Below are positions 19,162-36,608 of a stretch of 36,608 nt of DNA, piece after piece. How positions within the stretch are numbered: position 1 is the first letter of the stretch; each line of letters starts with the position of its first letter. Source of the stretch: a virus; IMG/VR virus record IMGVR_UViG_3300030117_002293, positions 1 to 36,608 of that record; one strand, written 5' to 3'. The notes beneath the pieces were generated by a model. The model was not told the DNA's origin. It saw nothing but the letters and a program-made list of their open reading frames with translations, and ran no database searches. A program made the position numbers and the translations under genes.

Positions 19162-19463
19162 GAGACACCAAATATTTAAGACAGCAAAAAAAAATGTTGT
19201 GTGTATGTACTTACAGCCAACAAAATTTGGAATCGCATCATTTATTAAGGTGTAGTTCACGAATTGGGATGTCAGGTAAAAGTTCAGATCATCACACAAT
19301 ACCGTTGCGGTCAGATATACATAGGGCATTACATGATAGCGGAGATGAAGTTAAGTTTTTAAAAAAATACAATATAACAAATGCCGAAAAGTTGGCAGAA
19401 GATTTATACAAAAACAAAAACAATTTAAAAAAATGCAGGAGGATTATATATGGACTATCCTGA
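19158..19463 (+). CDS. Small HNH/DUF968-like protein
   Basis: A 101-residue protein. ESHHLLRCSSRIGMSGKSSD and HHTIPLRSDIHRALHDSGDE match the order of HNH-type small phage nucleases (DUF968-like), in which a zinc- and metal-binding His-rich loop is followed by PL...H..LH..GDE. The usual first Cys pair is present only as CVC, and the residue before the central His is Asp/Ile rather than Cys, so the zinc knuckle may be incomplete. It sits between the recombination genes and a metallo-beta-lactamase-fold gene and overlaps both. Probably a structure- or strand-nicking nuclease in recombination. Confidence 0.68.
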   Translation: MRDTKYLRQQKKMLCVCTYSQQNLESHHLLRCSSRIGMSGKSSDHHTIPLRSDIHRALHDSGDEVKFLKKYNITNAEKLAEDLYKNKNNLKKCRRIIYGLS

Positions 19464-20736
19464 TTATCCATGCACTACAACGGTCCAATTATTAGGACAT
19501 GCTTGTTTACGTATTGCCTCTCCAGAGTATACACTAATTACTGATCCCTGGTTAATTGGTGATACACATGCAGGAGGGTGGTATCCGACAAAAGAACCAC
19601 CAGATAATTATGTTGATATACTAAATAATGCTGACAGTATATTTATATCACATACACATGGTGACCATTTACATAGAGAAACTTTAAAAAAATTAAAAAG
19701 TTCTATTAGAATAGTTATACCTCCATTTACTGCCCTGGAAACAATTTTAAAAAATTGGGGTTTTGACAATGTGAAGGTTTTAAATTTTAAAGAAGTTTAC
19801 GTTATTGGTGATTCAACTTTTACCTTATTTCCTTCTGGCGATGACCGAGAAGATAGTGGTTTTTATTTTAGGTGGAGAGATTTTAGTTTATTATCAAGTG
19901 TTGATAGTAACAATTTAAACTTTGGCGTATTACCTAATGCAACAGTATATGCAAGTAGTTATGCTGGTGGAGCAAGTAGCTATCCATTGTTGTTTGATAC
20001 AATAACCGAAGACGACAAAAAGAAAATTATAGAAAATAATCTAGTCGATTTAATGAAGAGCAATAAACAAACTAGAGAAAATTGCCAAGCAAAATATTAT
20101 ATGCCATATGCTGGTTTTACTGAGCTGAGTGATACAGTATTAGATTATGTTGTAGGGAATGATTCACAATGGGAAGTACGTGATTATGCAGATCCAAACT
20201 ATACGCTACTAGATACGGATATGTATAGTAATTTTGTTTTTAATAAAGAAGGAAAATTATTAGAAGAAAACACGATTGAACGTAGGCGAGTTATACATCA
20301 TATGTATCCCACAATTAAGAATTTAGACTTGCCAGAACCAAGTGCAATAATTACTAAATATTTTACTGAATGTAAATTTAATGAAAATATTGTTTTGTTT
20401 TTAACCTTAACAAATCAGAAATTTGATCCAATAGATAACGAAAAATACATAATATATTTTAATCGGAAAAAACCAAAAGTTGAAAAAATTAATTTTGACT
20501 GGTCGCAAGAAAACAAAAGGTTATTTGTTGATGATCGAAAATTATTGCATTTAAAAATACCAATAAGGGTATGTTGTTATTGGTTATATAATTACATGCC
20601 ATTAGAGGACATTGCTATAGGGTATCAATGCAAGGAAGATAGAATACCTAATGAACATTTTGATAAAGCATTTTGGACATATTTTAGCAATGAATATGTT
20701 TCTGGAATTAACCATAAAAAACCGAGGATAAAATGA
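19450..20736 (+). CDS. Metallo-beta-lactamase-fold protein related to sialic-acid hydroxylase-like enzymes
   Basis: A 428-residue protein with GGAGGATTATAT before the ATG. The N-terminal half has the MBL core: LLGHACLRI (14-22), TDPWL (31-35), GGWYP (42-46) and the metal motif SHTHGDHLH (67-75). The TDPWL-(x)n-GGW-ISHxHxDH pattern is typical of the CMP-Neu5Ac-monooxygenase-like and surface-polysaccharide MBL group. The C-terminal part contains IRVCCYWLYNYMPLEDIAIG followed by YQCKEDRIP and FDKAFWTYF, also seen in that group, where it may bind substrate or a lipid. Function is unknown, but an oxidative or hydrolytic sugar modification is plausible. It is unusual among recombination genes and looks like an acquired accessory gene. 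Confidence 0.72.
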   Translation: MDYPDYPCTTTVQLLGHACLRIASPEYTLITDPWLIGDTHAGGWYPTKEPPDNYVDILNNADSIFISHTHGDHLHRETLKKLKSSIRIVIPPFTALETILKNWGFDNVKVLNFKEVYVIGDSTFTLFPSGDDREDSGFYFRWRDFSLLSSVDSNNLNFGVLPNATVYASSYAGGASSYPLLFDTITEDDKKKIIENNLVDLMKSNKQTRENCQAKYYMPYAGFTELSDTVLDYVVGNDSQWEVRDYADPNYTLLDTDMYSNFVFNKEGKLLEENTIERRRVIHHMYPTIKNLDLPEPSAIITKYFTECKFNENIVLFLTLTNQKFDPIDNEKYIIYFNRKKPKVEKINFDWSQENKRLFVDDRKLLHLKIPIRVCCYWLYNYMPLEDIAIGYQCKEDRIPNEHFDKAFWTYFSNEYVSGINHKKPRIK

Positions 20737-24850: not shown

Positions 24851-25018
24851 ATGAATTTAATTAACGAAATTATCGATTATGAAAATGGTGAGCTAGAACT
24901 AAACGAAGTAGTTTGTTTATTTAAAAAATTAATAGAAACTGGATATATTAACCAATTACAAGGTACGTATCAAAGAACTGCTAGAGATTTATGGGAAAAT
25001 GGATACCTAAAATTATGA
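24851..25018 (+). CDS. 55-residue protein of a small phage family (LQGTYQRTA type)
   Basis: ATG at 24851 and TGA at 25016-25018. The product ends with LIETGYINQLQGTYQRTARD followed by LWENGYL, which resembles a small, widely distributed phage family that carries an LIDTG...LQGSYGRTA...L...G signature (DUF7417-type; the assignment is from memory). The N-terminus (LINEIIDYENGELELNEVVC) is helical. It has a ribosome site (AGGAGTG at 24839-24845) and shares four bases (ATGA) with the glycosyltransferase-like gene, so it is translated with it. Role unknown. Confidence 0.72.
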   Translation: MNLINEIIDYENGELELNEVVCLFKKLIETGYINQLQGTYQRTARDLWENGYLKL

Positions 25019-26001
25019 AAATTACCGTTGCACGTATACGATCCAATGTCCGATACAACAAACCTCTCCAGACTGTGCTCGATAGTTTTTTCGAAAATTA
25101 TGTACGTTGGATGCAGGACAACCCACAACATGAATACGACACGTACAATCTTTCGTTTAATGGATTACGACCCATGAGAACACCTGAAACAATTAAATGG
25201 GCAGATGTTATTGTCATACCTAGTGACAGCGAATTTCGTTATCATGGGGATTTGCAAATGAATCCTAAAGACCTGGCTAAATCCCAACAGCACATACAAA
25301 GTATTCTTCCGTACATTAAAAATAAACACATTATTGTTTGGAGATCAGATCGAGGAGACACAGAGCAGTTGTACAGAGAAGAAACGTTTCAAAATACACA
25401 TATCAAGTCTTACACCGAAATTGATGAGACAGATTTTTCTGGCAACATACATGGCATGAAATATCATTTTATTACTCAAGCGTTTTCTCAATCGTTGTTT
25501 CAACAACCCAAGACAGTCACGTTTGGTTATTGGGGTAAAATGAAGAAAGGGTGCGACCGAGGAAAAATCCTCCGCAAAATTTATCGTGACCCACATATCT
25601 CTAATGTGTTTGTTGGAGGATTTCCTTCAGGAATAGAAAGACAGTCTGCTTGGATTAAAGATTGGCACAAACTGTACCCATTATTAGAGCCATGTAAGTT
25701 TACGCTTTGTTTTAATTGGAAGGACAATACAGCAACTACGGCTCGTTATCCAGAAGCTTTGGCGTTGGGTATGATACCGTTTGTGTGGCAGAACTACGAC
25801 ATCAACAATACATACAACATAGAGCCAGAACAACGAATTACGGACTTTGACGATCTGAAAGATAAGATTACTTTGCTCAACAACGACTATAGTTTTGAGT
25901 TTTGGAGAAAAAAAATTTTTAACAACTACAAAAAAGTTTTATTGTCTCCTGATCAATATTACACTGAATTTAGTAAAAGAATGTGTAATGCGTTGTCGTA
26001 A
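25015..26001 (+). CDS. Glycosyltransferase-like protein (GT-B type, tentative)
   Basis: A 328-residue protein taken from the ATG at 25015, which overlaps the stop of the small gene before it (ATGA); the frame is open eight codons further upstream. The last third has TARYPEALALGMIPFVWQNY, the (R)xxEALAxGxxPx pattern of the donor site in GT-B glycosyltransferases and exostosin-like enzymes. Earlier parts include TVTFGYWGKMKKGCDRGKIL and a conserved-looking WADVIVIPSDSEFRYHG. It probably transfers a sugar to a target in the cytoplasm. It begins a cassette with a Mom-like enzyme and two further sugar genes, upstream of the terminase block. Confidence 0.7.
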   Translation: MKITVARIRSNVRYNKPLQTVLDSFFENYVRWMQDNPQHEYDTYNLSFNGLRPMRTPETIKWADVIVIPSDSEFRYHGDLQMNPKDLAKSQQHIQSILPYIKNKHIIVWRSDRGDTEQLYREETFQNTHIKSYTEIDETDFSGNIHGMKYHFITQAFSQSLFQQPKTVTFGYWGKMKKGCDRGKILRKIYRDPHISNVFVGGFPSGIERQSAWIKDWHKLYPLLEPCKFTLCFNWKDNTATTARYPEALALGMIPFVWQNYDINNTYNIEPEQRITDFDDLKDKITLLNNDYSFEFWRKKIFNNYKKVLLSPDQYYTEFSKRMCNALS

Positions 26002-26929
26002 CATAATTGTGCAACCAATACAGCATTACGAAACGAAAGAATGGCTGTTAAAAAAACATTACGCTAAACGTATACCTTCTATTATTTATGCCTATGGTCT
26101 TTACATTGATTATATGCTTGTTGGTATATGCACATACGGTATGCCACCAAGCAGCACATTAGCTGAAAGTATTGCTGGGGAAAGTTTTAAGGATTTAGTA
26201 ATTGAGTTAAATAGATTAATAACAGAAGATAATCTCCCAGCAAATTCCTTGTCTTTCTTTGTATCACAGTCTATTAAAATGTTGCGTGGTAATAATATAA
26301 TTGTGTCTTTTGCGGATGCAAATGTTGGTCATAATGGTTACATATATCAGGCTACTAATTTTACCTATACAGGCTGCACTTCTAATACAACAAAACTAAT
26401 CGACAAAAATGGAGAAGAATTTCACTTCCGTAATATCGGACATTACCAACACAACAACAAACTTAACGCCAAATTAATTAAACGCAGAGTTGACGAAGAC
26501 AAAATTGATAAATTTAAATTAGCACAATTTTTAAGATCGCATAAAGGTCAATGGACAGCCAAACAATTAGATGCCGAGTTTGGTTATAAGGACACTGCTG
26601 CTCATTGGTTTAGGTTAGACGTAGGTTTTAGTTTTCCCAAAGTAGACGATTGGACAAAACTAAAAAAATTGCTAAATCTATGCGATACATATGATGATGT
26701 GATGACTAACCATACACTTGTTCCCTGTTCCAATGACATAGTTGAAAAACTACAACTTACTAAAGTCGAAGTTTTACCCAAGCACCGTTACATTTACATA
26801 TCAGGTAACAAAACTTTTAAAAAGAAAGTCAAAAATAATTTAAAGCTCAAGGCATTACCCTATCCCAAACATGCTAATCGCAATTATAACATTAATAAAA
26901 AGGTAGAAACACAAGGGATTTTATTTTGA
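25988..26929 (+). CDS. Mom-like GNAT DNA-modification protein with an inserted DNA-binding-like domain
   Basis: A 313-residue protein from the ATG at 25988 (the frame is open 31 codons upstream but there overlaps the glycosyltransferase). The N-terminal part matches the Mom-like acyltransferase pattern: HYAKRIPSIIYAYGLYI (24-40), VGICTYGMPPSS, VIELNRLITEDNLPANSLSF (71-90) and VSFADANVGHNGYIYQATNF (106-125). Residues about 172-230 (LAQFLRSHKGQWTAKQLDAE, then FGYKDTAAHWFRLDVGFSFP and DWTKLKKLL) look like a recognition domain seen beside phage DNA methyltransferases. The end (KHRYIYISGNKTFKKKVKNN, then LKLKALPYPK) also recurs in Mom-like proteins. Mom-type enzymes acylate adenine to resist restriction. 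No methyltransferase is encoded here. Confidence 0.78.
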   Translation: MRCRNIIVQPIQHYETKEWLLKKHYAKRIPSIIYAYGLYIDYMLVGICTYGMPPSSTLAESIAGESFKDLVIELNRLITEDNLPANSLSFFVSQSIKMLRGNNIIVSFADANVGHNGYIYQATNFTYTGCTSNTTKLIDKNGEEFHFRNIGHYQHNNKLNAKLIKRRVDEDKIDKFKLAQFLRSHKGQWTAKQLDAEFGYKDTAAHWFRLDVGFSFPKVDDWTKLKKLLNLCDTYDDVMTNHTLVPCSNDIVEKLQLTKVEVLPKHRYIYISGNKTFKKKVKNNLKLKALPYPKHANRNYNINKKVETQGILF

Positions 26930-26938
26930 TAATAATAC

Positions 26939-26967
26939 TTGATATAAAAAAAATTGTGTGGTAACTA
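26939..26967 (+). promoter_or_regulatory. Candidate promoter before the GT fusion gene
   Basis: TTGATA (26939-26944), a 17-base spacer and TAACTA (26962-26967) lie in the 75-bp gap before the gene at 27005. The -35 matches consensus at five of six positions; the -10 is weaker. The ribosome site AGGACACTAGC follows. Plausible second start point for the downstream sugar genes. Confidence 0.4.
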
Positions 26968-27004
26968 AATTATGGGGTACTATGTCTAGATTTAGGACAC
27001 TAGC

Positions 27005-29233
27005 ATGGATGTTGTCGAACAAGAGTGGGAACTACGCAAACAAAACGGTTTACCACCTTATCATGCTATATCTGTAGATGACCTGGGTTTTCGATTTGTT
27101 AGTTTCCCCTCTCTCCAACTGTCTATTGAAGACCCAGGCATCACAGAATTTTTAAAAAAAAATTATGATACAATGCAAAAAATCTGGTCGCCATTAAGTG
27201 ACATAAGAAGTGTTTGCACAATTAAAGAAATAAAATCACAAGATATAAACCAATTACCTCAAGTTAAAACTATTTTTAAAACACCATCAGCTGATAGAGT
27301 TGGTTTTATAGCGTGTGACGGTGTATACTTTGAGAAGTTTGGTTCAACGCTATTAGATTCAATTAAAGAACCATGCCATGTGCATGTGTTTGATACTACT
27401 GGTGTCTATGAAACAAAATTAATTGAATACTTTAATCGACCAATTGGTTTAACAATTGAACAACCAAGAGCTAATGCATTATATTATCATGCAATAAGAT
27501 TTTGTAGGTTTTATCAATTTCTACAAAACAATAATGCTGGTGTTTTATTAGATGCGGATAGTTATGTAAATAAACCTCTATCTAATTTAACTGATGCAAA
27601 TTTAGCTATGAGGTTAAGACCAGGTAGGCTAGAACCCTGGAATCAATTTAATGCAAGTGTTGTTGTAGCATCAAATAATGCAATAGAATACATGGAAGCA
27701 GTAAGTAACTATTTATTGTTTTATTATACTCAAAAACGATTACAATGGGGAATAGATCAAGCTGCTTTATTTTTTTGTTATGAAAGATTAAAACCAGAAT
27801 TGAAAGTGTTATCAGAACTGGAGGTCGATTATGACTACCGTAAAGAAGGCATTGTTTGGCAAAACAGCTCATCCAATAAATTCATGGAACAGGATAAGAG
27901 TAGGCAAAGGTATAGGGATAGAGTTGCAGAGCTGCAAACACCGAAACCAGAAAAATTCAATTTGCAATCCAGCTCTAATAATTTTGATGATATTAATAAC
28001 CTTGAGTTGGATGCTAAACGTAATATTTTAAGTAATCCAAAAGAAGCGAAGCGATTATTTTTAAGATTATTACGTAGATGTTTTGAACATATACCTGAAC
28101 CTCCTAAAATTAAACTACCTGATGCAATTAAACCTAAAAGAAAAATAGAAAAGATTTTGTATTTACCTATAGAGGTATCTGCAAGAGAAATGCCATCTAG
28201 AATTTGGTTAGGTGAGCAAATGAAAAAACGTGGGTGGCAAGTTGTTATAGGTGCACGTTGGGCAATGCAGTCAGACGGTTTTAGAGATTTACCACCAGGA
28301 TTAATATTACATAAAACAGCTAATCATTTAGATGTTCCGTTATTGTTAGACGCTATAAAAGCTTATCATCAAATAGCAATATTAGATGAAGAGTTGTTTG
28401 GTATGTTGCCAAACAAATGGTTATATGAAACATCCGTAAGTAAACAAGCATTAGACTTAGCGGATCTCATTTGTGCGTCAAGCGATAAACAAAAAGAATT
28501 ATTAGGACCATTAACTAAAACGCCAATAACAGTGACTGGCAATCCAAGAGTACAAGAAACTAATGTGCAGCTAGGTAATGAAGTTTTAGTATGTACAATG
28601 TCTGCAACTATTAACAATTATGCGAGAAAGTTTATTGAAGTTGTAGATGGTACTATTAGAGTATTAGGATCTAGAAACGAAGATGTATTCCGTATGTTAG
28701 CGGAACAAATTGAACATGAATTAGAACTTTTGCCACAAGTAATGGAAGCAATACAAAAATTACGTGATGCAGGAGAAAAGGTAAAAGTCAGGGTACATCC
28801 TGTAGAAGATCCTAAATTATATAATGTTGAAAGAGACACACGATCTTTTACTGACTCACTACAAAATGTTAAAGCAGTAGTATATTGTAGTGGGTGTGGT
28901 ACTGGTTTAGAAAGTGCATTAGCAAACGTTCCAAGCGTTAGGATTGGTGAGGGTGGACATGGTTTATCTTCTACTTTCCAAAACAAAGCGACTAACATTG
29001 TAAAAGATGTACAACACGCATTTATACCTGTATTTGAAGAAAGTTATCCAGACTATCATAATTTACCTAATGCATTAACCAAGTTACAGCAGGACAATGC
29101 GTTTGACTGTAAGTATTTTGACTTAACTAAAATTTATGAACATAAGACTTGGCAGCCAGCAGAATTTCATGCAAACAAAGTTCCTAATGATCCACCAGGT
29201 AAAAAGATTTACTGGAGAACAAGTATCTTATGA
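27005..29233 (+). CDS. Two-domain glycosyltransferase: GT-A-like N-terminus fused to a surface-carbohydrate GT-B-like C-terminus
   Basis: A 742-residue protein. The N-terminal domain (about 95-285) fits a GT-A fold: VGFIACDGVYFEKFGSTLLD (99-118), a LLDADSY (181-187) metal/nucleotide-sugar DxD motif, and GIDQAALFFCYERL (249-262). A charged linker (about 290-380) leads to a second domain with ILYLPIEVSAREMPSRIWLG (384-403), WQVVIGARW, LILHKTANH (433-441), an ILDEELFG turn (459-466), ITVTGNPRV and, later, YCSGCGTGLESALANVPSV. This second part resembles the surface-carbohydrate biosynthesis GT-B family that uses DEE and GNPR motifs. The two activities in one chain suggest sequential sugar transfers. 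It follows the Mom-like gene and overlaps the Maf-like gene. Confidence 0.75.
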   Translation: MDVVEQEWELRKQNGLPPYHAISVDDLGFRFVSFPSLQLSIEDPGITEFLKKNYDTMQKIWSPLSDIRSVCTIKEIKSQDINQLPQVKTIFKTPSADRVGFIACDGVYFEKFGSTLLDSIKEPCHVHVFDTTGVYETKLIEYFNRPIGLTIEQPRANALYYHAIRFCRFYQFLQNNNAGVLLDADSYVNKPLSNLTDANLAMRLRPGRLEPWNQFNASVVVASNNAIEYMEAVSNYLLFYYTQKRLQWGIDQAALFFCYERLKPELKVLSELEVDYDYRKEGIVWQNSSSNKFMEQDKSRQRYRDRVAELQTPKPEKFNLQSSSNNFDDINNLELDAKRNILSNPKEAKRLFLRLLRRCFEHIPEPPKIKLPDAIKPKRKIEKILYLPIEVSAREMPSRIWLGEQMKKRGWQVVIGARWAMQSDGFRDLPPGLILHKTANHLDVPLLLDAIKAYHQIAILDEELFGMLPNKWLYETSVSKQALDLADLICASSDKQKELLGPLTKTPITVTGNPRVQETNVQLGNEVLVCTMSATINNYARKFIEVVDGTIRVLGSRNEDVFRMLAEQIEHELELLPQVMEAIQKLRDAGEKVKVRVHPVEDPKLYNVERDTRSFTDSLQNVKAVVYCSGCGTGLESALANVPSVRIGEGGHGLSSTFQNKATNIVKDVQHAFIPVFEESYPDYHNLPNALTKLQQDNAFDCKYFDLTKIYEHKTWQPAEFHANKVPNDPPGKKIYWRTSIL

Positions 29234-30072
29234 GGGGTGAGGGCAGGATACCATTTTGGGAATTAATAGAACGTGTTAGAGTTAACATGCATTGGAAAAA
29301 AAACGCTATTGATTTACCCAGGCAACAAGGCAGTGTTGTCATTTGTGGTGGTGGTCCGAGTTTAGAAAAAGATATTAAATACATTAAGCAGTTAATAAAA
29401 AAGAAATGCAAATTGTGGACTGTTAACAAGACACATGATTATTTACGGACTAAAGCATTAATTAGTGATTATTGTTGTTTGTTAGATCCAAAAGATTGGG
29501 TAGCAGACTATGTGCAAAAACCTAATAAAAAAACAACATACCTGGTTAGTAGTCAATGTGACGAATTAGTGTTTAAAAAACTGAAATCTAAGAACATATA
29601 CTTATGGCACGCTGGAGTAGATTACTTTAACCAAGAATACCCAACACCTATATTAGCAAAAGAACAAACAAAACCATTTAGAATAATACCAGGACCAACA
29701 ACTGTAGGGTTAAGAAGTTTACTGGTCGCATATGATTTAGGGTTTAGGGATTTCCATTTGTTTGGATTTGACAGTAGTTTTGCGGAGAATGGTAATGCAC
29801 ATGCATATGATAAACCACCACCACCTGATGCAAGCTTAACAACGAAGACAATTAGCACCAGATTGCGGAGTGTTACGTATCAGACTAATACGCATATGGC
29901 AAAACAAGCGGATGATTTTGAAGAGTTGATAGAGAAAATAGGAGAATTTATACGTAAAGGGTGGTGGGATAACATAGATATAACAGTGTACGGTACAGGT
30001 CTTTTACCTTCATTAGCAGCTACGTATGGGTTACATGGTGATCCTAATATAAATAAACTCTGGACACATTAA
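29230..30072 (+). CDS. Maf/DUF115 (MptE-like) glycosyltransferase-like protein
   Basis: A 280-residue protein, overlapping the preceding gene by four bases (ATGA). SVVICGGGPSLEKDI (35-49), then KLWTVNKTHDYLRTKALISD, DYCCLLDPKDWV and, later, TTVGLRSLLVAYDLGFRDFH with LFGFDSSFAENGNAHAY follow the pattern of the MAF_flag10/DUF115 family. That family includes enzymes that attach nonulosonic acids to flagellin and MptE-like pterin pyrophosphokinases; the two cannot be told apart from sequence alone. It is the third sugar-type gene in the cassette and the last gene before the terminase promoter. Confidence 0.76.
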   Translation: MRGEGRIPFWELIERVRVNMHWKKNAIDLPRQQGSVVICGGGPSLEKDIKYIKQLIKKKCKLWTVNKTHDYLRTKALISDYCCLLDPKDWVADYVQKPNKKTTYLVSSQCDELVFKKLKSKNIYLWHAGVDYFNQEYPTPILAKEQTKPFRIIPGPTTVGLRSLLVAYDLGFRDFHLFGFDSSFAENGNAHAYDKPPPPDASLTTKTISTRLRSVTYQTNTHMAKQADDFEELIEKIGEFIRKGWWDNIDITVYGTGLLPSLAATYGLHGDPNINKLWTH

Positions 30073-30076
30073 CATA

Positions 30077-30106
30077 TTTTGATAACATCAAAAGCATTAT
30101 TATAAT
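30077..30106 (+). promoter_or_regulatory. Strong late-type promoter with an overlapping palindrome
   Basis: TTGATA (30079-30084), 16 bases, then TATAAT (30101-30106) make a near-consensus sigma-70-type promoter. TTTTGAT-AAC-ATCAAAA (30077-30093) overlaps the -35, so a regulator probably binds here. The gap is 56 bp, between the sugar cassette and the small terminase gene. Confidence 0.65.
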
Positions 30107-30128: not shown

Positions 30129-30428
30129 ATGAAGACTAGAGGTACAAGAGAAAACACTGACAAGCAAAGTAAGTATGCTAAACGCAGGAAAATGATTGAA
30201 GTTTCTCGTATAGTTAATAAATTTCAGAAGTTTGTATTAGCTGACACTGAAAAAGAACGAGAAAAGTACAATCTTACTAGAGAGCAAGTAGCAGTTGGCG
30301 TAGCATTATTGAAGAAAAGTTTGCCAGATTTAAGTCATCAGCAATTATCAGGCGATGAAGATAATCCAGCTAATATAACTGTAAATTTTGGCGGTGTTAA
30401 AAGCTTTAATGGAAAACAAAAAGATTAA
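30129..30428 (+). CDS. Terminase small subunit (likely)
   Basis: A 99-residue, basic and mostly helical protein. An N-terminal stretch with many Lys/Arg (TRGTRENTDKQSKYAKRRKM) precedes helices (IVNKFQKFVLADTEKEREKY, then LTREQVAVGVALLKKSLPDL) and an acidic/Gly-rich end with ITVNFGGVKSF. It sits right after the promoter at 30077-30106 and directly before the large terminase, the usual place of the small subunit that recognises the packaging site. It overlaps the large subunit start by 20 bases. It lacks a visible HTH signature, so the call rests mainly on context. Confidence 0.7.
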   Translation: MKTRGTRENTDKQSKYAKRRKMIEVSRIVNKFQKFVLADTEKEREKYNLTREQVAVGVALLKKSLPDLSHQQLSGDEDNPANITVNFGGVKSFNGKQKD

Positions 30429-31671
30429 CATAGACTATCAGCCTAGACAGGTCTTTGATGATTACCATAATACTGATAAAAGATGGTCAGTTATTGTAGC
30501 ACATAGACGAGCAGGAAAAACAACAGCTGCACTCTGCCATTTACTAATGCATTCATTAGATAAAACAGATGGTAGATTTGCGTTTATATCACCATATTAT
30601 AGCCAATCTAAAGATATAGCCTGGCAATTACTTCTGCAATATAATGCACCATTATTGGAAAATGGTTTATCATCAATTAATGAAAGTGAATTGCGGATAG
30701 ATTTTTTTAATGGATCTAGAATTAGATTATATGGATCAGATAATTACAACAGGTTAAGAGGTCTAGGGTTTAACGGTGTTGTTATTGATGAATATGCAGA
30801 TTGTGATCCCAGGGCATATCCAGAAGTTATAAGACCAGCGTTAAGTAGTGAGATGGGGTTTTGTACTTGGATAGGTACTGCTAAAGGTCATAATGCATTT
30901 TATGAAATATACCAACGATCATTAAATGATCCAGAGTTTTACAGTTTAATGTTGAAAGCAAGTCAAACTGGCATTTTACGTAAAGAAGAATTAGATGCAG
31001 CACATAATGATTTGACACAAGATCAATATAACCAGGAATACGAATGCTCATTTGATGCAGCTATCCAGGGTGCGTACTATGGTGAGGATATGCGTAAAGC
31101 AGAGGAAGAGGGTAGAGTTGGTATAACGCACCACGAAAAAGAACTAGAAGTACATACAGCCTGGGATCTTGGAGTAGGTGATGCAACAAGTATTGTTATG
31201 TTCCAGATTGTTGGTAATGAATACAGGATAATTGATTACTATGAATCAAGCGGTGTTGGTCTAGACCATTATGTTAAGGTATTAAAAGACAAACCATACA
31301 TCTATGGACAACACATACTACCACATGATATCAAAGTCAGAGAACTATCAACAGGTAAAAGCAGATTAGAAGTATTAAGTAATTTAGGCATTAAGGCAGA
31401 AGTATGCCCTAACTTAACAATAGAGGATGGGATACAAGCAGTAAGAGGTTTATTGGACCGTTGTTGGTTTGATAGAAAGAAGTGTGATAGATTAGTAGAA
31501 GCGTTGAAACAATATCGCAGAAACTTTGATGAGAGAACAAAAACATTTAAAGTTAAACCAGCACACGATTGGACCAGCCATCCTTGTGATGCATTCAGAA
31601 TGATGGCAGTAGGGTACAAGTCTAAAACAAATTATACAGAAGTGGAGGTAAACACAGGATGGATAGTGTAG
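30409..31671 (+). CDS. terL: Terminase large subunit
   Basis: A 420-residue protein read from the ATG at 30409; a TTG seven codons upstream is the alternative. It has the packaging ATPase Walker A at AHRRAGKTTA (31-40), Walker B at FNGVVIDEYA (121-130), a coupling TGTAKG-like turn at WIGTAKGHNAFYEIY (154-168), and the nuclease part with AWDLGVGDATSIVMF (251-265) and HDWTSHPCDAFRMMAVGY near the end. It powers DNA translocation into the procapsid through the portal and cuts the packaged genome. It lies between the small subunit and the portal gene, as expected. Confidence 0.93.
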   Translation: MENKKINIDYQPRQVFDDYHNTDKRWSVIVAHRRAGKTTAALCHLLMHSLDKTDGRFAFISPYYSQSKDIAWQLLLQYNAPLLENGLSSINESELRIDFFNGSRIRLYGSDNYNRLRGLGFNGVVIDEYADCDPRAYPEVIRPALSSEMGFCTWIGTAKGHNAFYEIYQRSLNDPEFYSLMLKASQTGILRKEELDAAHNDLTQDQYNQEYECSFDAAIQGAYYGEDMRKAEEEGRVGITHHEKELEVHTAWDLGVGDATSIVMFQIVGNEYRIIDYYESSGVGLDHYVKVLKDKPYIYGQHILPHDIKVRELSTGKSRLEVLSNLGIKAEVCPNLTIEDGIQAVRGLLDRCWFDRKKCDRLVEALKQYRRNFDERTKTFKVKPAHDWTSHPCDAFRMMAVGYKSKTNYTEVEVNTGWIV

Positions 31672-34880: not shown

Positions 34881-35235
34881 TGATACAATTAAAGCAATGA
34901 TAGAAGATCAATTAGGTATCAAAAGAACTGGCAAAAAAGGATACCAAGTAGATTTAGCAAGAGATAGCGACACTGTTTTATATATTGAGGAATACGGACC
35001 AGCATTGTTGGGTATTGCAACACAATCTGCACATGGGTATGCAAAACAAATAGCAGTTTATGACTCGGCTAAAGTTGTTGAGTTAATTATGGAACAACAA
35101 CAATTAAGTAAAAAAGATGCATTAGATGTATTTCATTATGAAGTAGCAATGATTTATTTAGGAGATCATACACCAATGTTTTTAGACACGTTTGACACTT
35201 TGAAAGCTTTTGAGCATGGCAGAACAATCAACTAA
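34870..35235 (+). CDS. Larger paralogue of the preceding gene
   Basis: A 121-residue protein. A basic and helical N-terminal extension (IKAMIEDQLGIKRTGKKGYQ) precedes a domain with IAVYDSAKVVELIMEQQQLS, then ALDVFHYEVAMIYLGDHTPM, matching the neighbour at 34644. It overlaps the giant virion gene by 20 bases, so these small proteins are transcribed with the head genes. Unknown function; duplication and divergence in tandem is clear from the aligned motifs. Confidence 0.74.
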   Translation: MSYDDTIKAMIEDQLGIKRTGKKGYQVDLARDSDTVLYIEEYGPALLGIATQSAHGYAKQIAVYDSAKVVELIMEQQQLSKKDALDVFHYEVAMIYLGDHTPMFLDTFDTLKAFEHGRTIN

Positions 35236-36608
35236 CAGAGGTTTACCCAGTCCAGCAGACCTATTAATGGGGTCTATTATTGGACAGGGTTACGTTCCTC
35301 CAGGAGCTGAAGAAGCAACAAAGAATTTATTTGCAGAAACTGGAATAGCTGTTGGTGGTGGTGTAACTGATGCGTTACGTAATACCTTTCGCACACTAGA
35401 ACTTAATGGTGTAGCAGACTTAATACCACAAGTCCGAGAAAACAAAACCTTTCTTGGAAACGTAGGAAGAGGTGGTGCACAATTCTTAACTACCTTCCTT
35501 CCTTTATTGAGAGTGACAGGATTAGGTGCAAAGATAAAAAAAGGAATGTCACTTAAAGATATTATGAGTGTAGAGGGTATTGGTCTTTTAGCAGACCAGT
35601 TAGCATTTGATCCATTTGACCCAAGGTTATCAAACCTTATAGAAGATTCAAGGTTTTCTAATGTAGTCACAGATTATTTAAAAGCAGATAAAACTGATAG
35701 CGAAGGTGTTGCACGTTATAAAATGTTTTTAGAGTCATTAGGTTTATCAGGTGGGGTAACTGGTGTTACAGACTTAATTGCTAACTCTAAACAATACGGT
35801 AGTGCTGTTAAAAAATCTGCTGAAAACTTTGGTAATGTAGTAAAAAAACAGTTTGATGATTTAGATTTAAGAGAACTGCAAAAAGGTGCATTAAATCCAG
35901 AAGAGTCTGTATTGTATGGTGGCGATGGTACATCTCATTTACGTAAACGAGGCGATGGTCCATATATAGGATCACCAAACATAAGAACCGAAAAAGAACT
36001 ACAACAATTAAGAAATAAATTAGATAGGCATATTGCAGAAGGTATTGAAAATAAAGATTGGTATAAAACACTGCGAGGATTAGCAGAAGAGTTATACCCT
36101 GATAATCCAGATGCTCAATCAGTGTTCGGAAAAATTGGTGCATGGTACTCACCAAACACAAATCCAACCGAAGAAACAATTAGAGCCATATCGTTATTAA
36201 CTAATAAAATGATTGCTGATACGAATGTTCCTGGTGGTATTATGCAAGGTCGTATCACATCAGCAGCTGACGCTGGTATTACATTTAATAAAGATGGCAG
36301 TGTAAAATTTTCTACTAAAGCAATGAGTGATAAAACACCATTGCCAAGAACTAAAATAGGTCGGTATTCAGATAGTAGAGATCCTACAATACCTTTAGGT
36401 AAAATAGAACAATCTGCTGGTGACATATGGATGGAAAGAATATTTGGGTATCCAAAAGGTAGTTTAAATAAAGCTCAAACAAAGTTAGATTTTTATGATG
36501 CAGAAATGGCATTGGCTGTTGATAGGTGGAATAAAAAAAATCCAACAAATCAGTTAAATATACCAGAAGCACAAGCAACTATGTGGTCTACTGCACGTAG
36601 AAATGATG
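35216..36608 (+). CDS. Large virion (probable ejection) protein, N-terminal part; runs off the right edge
   Basis: Starts at the ATG at 35216, 20 bases before the end of the preceding gene, and stays open for 464 codons to the edge, where it continues at position 1. The N-terminal 110 residues contain Gly/Ala-rich helices, including ETGIAVGGGVTDALRNTF. The segment LLADQLAFDPFDPRLSNLIE resembles a motif in large ejection proteins of marine podoviruses. Further on the chain is helical and charged (DIWMERIFGYPKGSLNKAQT, then LDFYDAEMALAVDRWNKKNP), with a pattern met in large phage polyvalent or ejection proteins. No catalytic motif is evident. Its position between the packaging block and the scaffold fits a virion protein. 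Confidence 0.85.
   Translation, partial: MAEQSTNRGLPSPADLLMGSIIGQGYVPPGAEEATKNLFAETGIAVGGGVTDALRNTFRTLELNGVADLIPQVRENKTFLGNVGRGGAQFLTTFLPLLRVTGLGAKIKKGMSLKDIMSVEGIGLLADQLAFDPFDPRLSNLIEDSRFSNVVTDYLKADKTDSEGVARYKMFLESLGLSGGVTGVTDLIANSKQYGSAVKKSAENFGNVVKKQFDDLDLRELQKGALNPEESVLYGGDGTSHLRKRGDGPYIGSPNIRTEKELQQLRNKLDRHIAEGIENKDWYKTLRGLAEELYPDNPDAQSVFGKIGAWYSPNTNPTEETIRAISLLTNKMIADTNVPGGIMQGRITSAADAGITFNKDGSVKFSTKAMSDKTPLPRTKIGRYSDSRDPTIPLGKIEQSAGDIWMERIFGYPKGSLNKAQTKLDFYDAEMALAVDRWNKKNPTNQLNIPEAQATMWSTARRND

Follow-up and report, generated by a model that had tools for sequence, protein, structure and literature searches.

The four consecutive genes at 25015-30072 of the window, by which we mean the whole 36,608-nt stretch of DNA that was analysed, look more like two or three separate systems than a single pathway. 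Their best reading is that two DNA-modification genes were acquired beside a resident pair of genes acting on surface or protein glycans. We propose, with confidence that is about evenly balanced, that the four genes form two neighbouring sets, of which set A (genes 1 and 2) modifies phage DNA and set B (genes 3 and 4) encodes surface-glycan or glycoprotein transferases. The initial annotation of this DNA had described a single compact sugar-modification cassette and called for profile searches and structure prediction; these upheld its Mom-like assignment of gene 2 and added two features that had been missed, an insert within the Mom protein and a T4 glucosyltransferase fold in the product of gene 1.

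An open reading frame (ORF) check of the 36,608-nt window placed the four genes in a row on the plus strand between replication and packaging genes, as had been annotated. Gene 1 (25015-26001, 328 aa) encodes a GT-B glycosyltransferase with the fold of the T4 DNA beta- and alpha-glucosyltransferases; its longest ORF begins at 24991, and the methionine at 25015 (MKIT...) is the start favoured by aligned relatives. That start shares an ATGA overlap with a plus-strand DUF7417 gene (24851-25018), the last of the early gene string. Gene 2 (25988-26929, plus strand, 313 aa, ATG start) overlaps gene 1 by 14 nt and encodes a Mom-family GNAT protein with a methyltransferase-type helical insert. After a gap of 75 nt, the second pair begins with gene 3 (27005-29233, plus strand, 742 aa), in which a GT-A-like domain (aa ~89-304) is fused to a TIGR04396-like, GT-B-like domain (aa 385-646), and continues through an ATGA overlap into gene 4 (29230-30072, plus strand, 280 aa), which encodes an MptE-like/Maf-type (PF01973) transferase core. 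The upstream neighbours are RecE-like exonuclease, SSB, RusA, and DnaD/DnaT-like genes, and the downstream neighbours are TerL (30388-31671), portal, scaffold, and SU10-like capsid genes. A metallo-beta-lactamase-fold protein (PF13483) is encoded amid the replication genes at 19450-20736.

A promoter-like site (TTGATA-16-TATAAT, 11/12) does lie on the plus strand at 30079-30106, upstream of a small gene (30129-30428) and TerL, where a terminase promoter had been proposed, but such sites numbered 30 in the region against 37 in shuffled sequence and are thus not above chance. TerL was nearest (~44% identity) to that of podophages of Methylophilales (OM43) and Pelagibacter; the host is therefore probably a marine proteobacterium. 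The 36,608-bp record is linear in IMG/VR, and its end ORFs (1-1151 and 35210-36608) are open and form one frame across the ends with no stop (codon GAT), an arrangement that a complete, circularly permuted genome could produce.

Gene 2 is a true Mom-family enzyme, as first suggested, and Pfam, PHROG, PDB sequence, and fold comparisons all agree on this. It matched the Pfam Mom family PF25680 above the cut-off (E 3.3e-39; 135.1 bits, cut-off 27.1), the PHROG Mom family (E 6e-58), and the sequence of phage Mu Mom in the PDB (8bv8, E 1.1e-11), and Foldseek ranked 8bv8 first for its AlphaFold model (pLDDT 73) at E 9.9e-10, with the next match at 3.5e-4. Its relatives in marine viral contigs share 52-79% identity. 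Gene 2 and Mu Mom, a methylcarbamoylase, have in common the GNAT core, the HY motif (H24 and Y25 in gene 2), and the terminal RYI...YPK strands, and Ser89 of gene 2 aligns with the catalytic Ser124 of Mu, which is mutated in the inactive protein whose structure is 8bv8; this serine is conserved in 8/8 diverse aligned Moms. By analogy with Mu, the product of gene 2 is a putative DNA acyl-modification enzyme that would act on the N6 of adenine. The two differ in that no com gene was seen upstream of gene 2 and in that gene 2 carries a ~100-aa insert with homology to a domain of DNA methyltransferases.

The insert (~aa 165-263; 26480-26776, plus strand) comprises ~100 extra residues that follow the GNAT core and precede the last strands, and is absent from Mu Mom, from a tandem Mom paralogue in locus L012, and from the Mom of locus L076. 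It was modelled as a helix bundle, with helices over aa 175-240 that have a block pLDDT of 84-91 over most of their length. A tblastn search with the insert alone returned almost exclusively annotated phage DNA methyltransferases (best E 2e-4), and in the reverse search methyltransferases matched inserts in Mom genes at E values as low as ~1e-8. Among 81 related marine-phage Mom loci, 49 carry the insert inside the Mom gene, and many of these 49 inserts match one or both of the methyltransferases of phages Alsa_2 and HTVC134P at 1e-4 to 1e-8. An N6/N4 methyltransferase of Staphylococcus phage Alsa_2 contains the domain at aa 224-262, flanked by its SPPY (29) and FIGSG (328) motifs, and the gene immediately upstream encodes a Mom that lacks the insert (locus L251, 1166-2974); in Pelagibacter phage HTVC134P the domain occupies ~aa 235-315 of a C5-cytosine methyltransferase. 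The insert is thus homologous to a domain found within both phage N6/N4- and C5-DNA methyltransferases. Its profile had no match among PDB sequences, and the insert alone had only chance matches among PHROGs. Since the domain recurs within three unrelated DNA-modifying folds, it is most simply read as a target-recognition or DNA-binding module, which would steer the gene 2 enzyme to particular sites.

No paper describing this insert was found among the open literature searched. Mom fused to nucleases has been reported in jumbo phages (PMC7824862), and these Mom-REase fusions resemble gene 2 in joining Mom to another DNA-acting domain; gene 2, however, has as its partner no fused nuclease but a recognition domain of the methyltransferase type that lies inside the Mom fold. 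Other arrangements of Mom were observed in the surveyed loci. Tandem Mom genes with a one-base overlap, one with and one without the insert, occur in L012 (8001-9574) and in L002-L006, and Moms in which ~300 additional bases separate the core from the methyltransferase-type insert occur in L013 (2436-3701) and L279-L287. In large marine phages that also bear a gene 1 relative, Mom overlaps a gene whose product is nucleotidyltransferase-like and has a cupin-like tail (L179, 1456-3038; L180, 599-2181).

Gene 1 is a probable DNA glycosyltransferase on the strength of its predicted fold and the setting of its relatives. Its AlphaFold2 model, built from 31 aligned sequences, reached a pLDDT of 88.8, and the first seven Foldseek matches in the PDB were all T4 BGT or AGT (TM 0.52-0.64), the best being BGT (E 6.6e-8, TM 0.62), with AGT at E 3.4e-7; BshA (8e-6) and then other GT-B enzymes followed more weakly. 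Sequence comparison was silent in comparison with the fold: profile alignment to the T4 enzymes gave no detectable similarity (hhalign E 0.42 for BGT and 0.053 for AGT), and gene 1 had no Pfam, PHROG, NCBIfam, or PDB sequence match, the latter also when its profile was searched, apart from one weak Pfam match (E 0.05) below the cut-off. An annotated DNA beta-glucosyltransferase was present amid many GT-B proteins in its list of viral library matches.

Relatives of gene 1 are encoded in 185 viral stretches, and the locus counts given here are for the best 80 of these (60-68% identity), many of which are fragments; a more distant relative (40% identity) occurs in the cultured Pelagibacter phage HTVC008M. 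In T4-like marine phages, gp47 is the next gene after the gene 1 relative in 34/80 loci, which is the position of a-gt in T4 itself, directly 5' of gp47/gp46. A gene resembling those for TET-associated glycosyltransferases (TAGT; PF20691 E 1e-13, phrog_842), a family involved in viral DNA hypermodification, is present in 20/80 loci and directly 3' of the gene 1 relative in 14 of them, and in one lineage the gene 1 relative, TAGT, HNH, and a different Mom follow one another as a run of overlapping genes. The resemblance to these known systems is partial. No gp42-type hydroxymethylase, as in T4, was found in the window or in 20 records of relatives, and no TAGT gene was found in the window; nor was a TET gene found there, in a search that had no positive control.

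A DruA-like gene (PF14236, phrog_19197; e.g., locus L056, 2437-3546) accompanies the gene 1 relatives in 70/80 loci, and 7 of the 10 loci without it have <900 bases of upstream sequence; it is absent from the window. This partner had no solved-structure match by sequence, and its alignment with a Mom-like GNAT was not significant (hhalign E 0.12) and covered only a GNAT-like strand. The missing partner counts against a DNA-modifying set A, as does the fact that no source of a hydroxylated base is known in the phage: a Pfam scan of window proteins found neither a methyltransferase nor a thymidylate-synthase-type hydroxymethylase, in keeping with the initial annotation.

The fold of gene 1 alone does not fix its acceptor, and the targets raised at the outset, DNA on the one hand and a surface or protein on the other, are both still at stake. 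An explanation that we consider unlikely is that the gene 1 product does not act on DNA, and that genes 1, 3, and 4 glycosylate the host surface in superinfection exclusion, or virion proteins, with Mom unrelated. The GT-B fold is indeed common to many surface glycosyltransferases, which fill the Foldseek ranks from 8 onward; in 26/80 loci the gene immediately before the gene 1 relative is that of a nucleotidyltransferase, as in sugar-nucleotide pathways; and most pelagimyophage glycosyltransferases have been assigned to LPS (PMC7029224). Against this stand the seven best fold matches, all of them T4 DNA glucosyltransferases, and the location of the relatives, which are found in the replication module by gp47/gp46 or TAGT and not among tail or surface genes. 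Among the open literature searched, no paper assigning gene 1 relatives to DNA was found; in pelagiphages, hypermodification has been described through thymidylate-synthase-type and aG/PT-PPlase genes (PMC9599517). A search for the thymidylate-synthase-type enzyme (PF00303) in 20 gene 1 records, four of them 137-166 kb long, found none, with working positive controls.

That same absence favours a distinctly unlikely alternative in which the enzymes of genes 1 and 2 work one after the other, Mom adding a group that bears a hydroxyl or other nucleophile and the BGT-like enzyme placing a sugar on it, so that no hydroxymethylase is needed. The 14-nt overlap of the two genes fits such a series, as does a second lineage (L069, L075-L077) in which a gene 1 relative and a different Mom lie in one overlapping run, and Mom is present in three of the four gene 1 records >130 kb. 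Two of these records look related, and the Mom-bearing gene 1 records may represent two lineages only. A different Mom lies nearby in just 4/80 gene 1 loci, the other 76 having no Mom in the available locus sequence, and neither gene 1 nor TAGT occurs in any of 81 Mom loci. This survey lowers the likelihood of a Mom-made sugar acceptor, and to our knowledge methylcarbamoyl adenine, the Mu Mom product, has no hydroxyl group, which likewise counts against the series. Slightly less probable again is a fuller version, in which the acyl group that Mom places under the aim of its insert is then glycosylated by the BGT-like enzyme, yielding sequence-specific glycosylated DNA with neither a hydroxymethylase nor TET. 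The gene 1-gene 2 pair is nevertheless the sole link among the four genes that has a second, independent example.

Returning to the proposal of two sets, genes 3 and 4 have families that point to surface or protein glycans, in line with the glycosyltransferase-like character first ascribed to genes 1, 3, and 4, which was borne out. The C-terminal domain of gene 3 matched TIGR04396, a family of surface carbohydrate biosynthesis proteins, at E 4.1e-25, its score of 88.8 bits falling short of the cut-off (125), and differs from that family in being fused to a GT-A-like domain. This N-terminal part has a DxD motif (LDADS) and weakly matched a glycosyltransferase of an Ochrobactrum phage (E 9e-5). 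Gene 3 had no match among PDB sequences. The TIGR04396 cut-off was exceeded in 14 genomes of 398 sampled Pseudomonadota, and the regions in question contain a CMP-ulosonate-type cytidylyltransferase in 10/14, for which the query may also match Kdo enzymes, and a NeuB-type synthase in 5/14.

Gene 4 matched PF01973 (MptE-like) above the cut-off (E 1.4e-21; 77.5 bits, cut-off 34.6), sharing its core domain with the Maf/PseD flagellin glycosyltransferases; its match to FlagModPseD (E 3e-8; 32.7 bits against a cut-off of 670) covers the core domain only and is not a full-length family match. Most of its relatives are either Maf-like ORFs of 730-940 aa or stand-alone proteins of 265-311 aa, and one lies within an LPS-type cluster; compared with the bacterial Maf-like matches (mostly ~730-940 aa), gene 4 is a stand-alone protein of 280 aa. 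A viral ORF in locus L016 (6966-8732) seems to be a fusion of a methyltransferase-like domain with an MptE-like domain that resembles gene 4.

Our best guess is that genes 3 and 4 act on a glycan of the surface or of proteins, one that plausibly contains a nonulosonic acid. They would be coupled transferases handling a nonulosonic (sialic-acid-like) or related sugar, by which set B would alter the host surface or virion proteins. It is possible, though somewhat doubtful, that virion proteins rather than the host surface are glycosylated. The core that gene 4 shares with flagellin glycosyltransferases and the position of the pair directly before the packaging and structural genes would suit virion proteins, but the TIGR04396 relatives and the one gene 4 relative lie in surface-polysaccharide-type clusters, and no acceptor protein could be identified.

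The co-occurrence survey, in which many loci were fragments, led us to reject a single four-gene pathway. Neither gene 3 nor gene 4 occurs in any of the 80 gene 1 loci; genes 1, 3, and 4 are all missing from the 81 Mom loci; and none of the four genes was found in 80 TerL-related loci, including the region upstream of TerL in related podophages. Scans of viral sequences and genomes with gene 3 alone, which rely on short exact peptides, recovered no relatives, a search for gene 3 in 19 viral records, run with no positive control, was empty, and viral relatives of genes 3 and 4 in the same setting were not found, although distant ones may be missed. Composition also splits the locus. Gene 1 is the most atypical of 31 genes tested (GC3 0.37, worst codon fit), and genes 3 and 4 are ordinary for this phage. 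Because co-occurrence was lacking in the surveyed loci and composition is divided in this way, we view the cassette as a meeting of separately moving parts. Gene 1, the insert-bearing Mom, and genes 3-4 each occur apart from one another in the surveyed loci, which comes near the independent carriage in related phages that the initial annotation had itself named as contrary to one cassette. That all four genes constitute a single DNA-hypermodification pathway is accordingly very improbable: their adjacency in two overlapping pairs speaks for it, but genes 3 and 4 are never with gene 1 or 2 in any related locus, their families indicate other glycans, and the two sets differ in composition.

Under the favoured two-set explanation, the acyl group added by gene 2 and a sugar that the gene 1 enzyme would add to a modified DNA base may together shield the phage DNA against host nucleases. 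The gene 1 family is highly conserved at the a-gt position in T4-like marine phages, in which no hydroxymethylase was found, and this raises the question of which base is glycosylated. The presence of one helical domain in a Mom acylase, an N6/N4 methylase, and a C5 methylase suggests that target recognition is portable and can be acquired by Mom, and the insert makes the poorly understood site choice of Mom directly testable.
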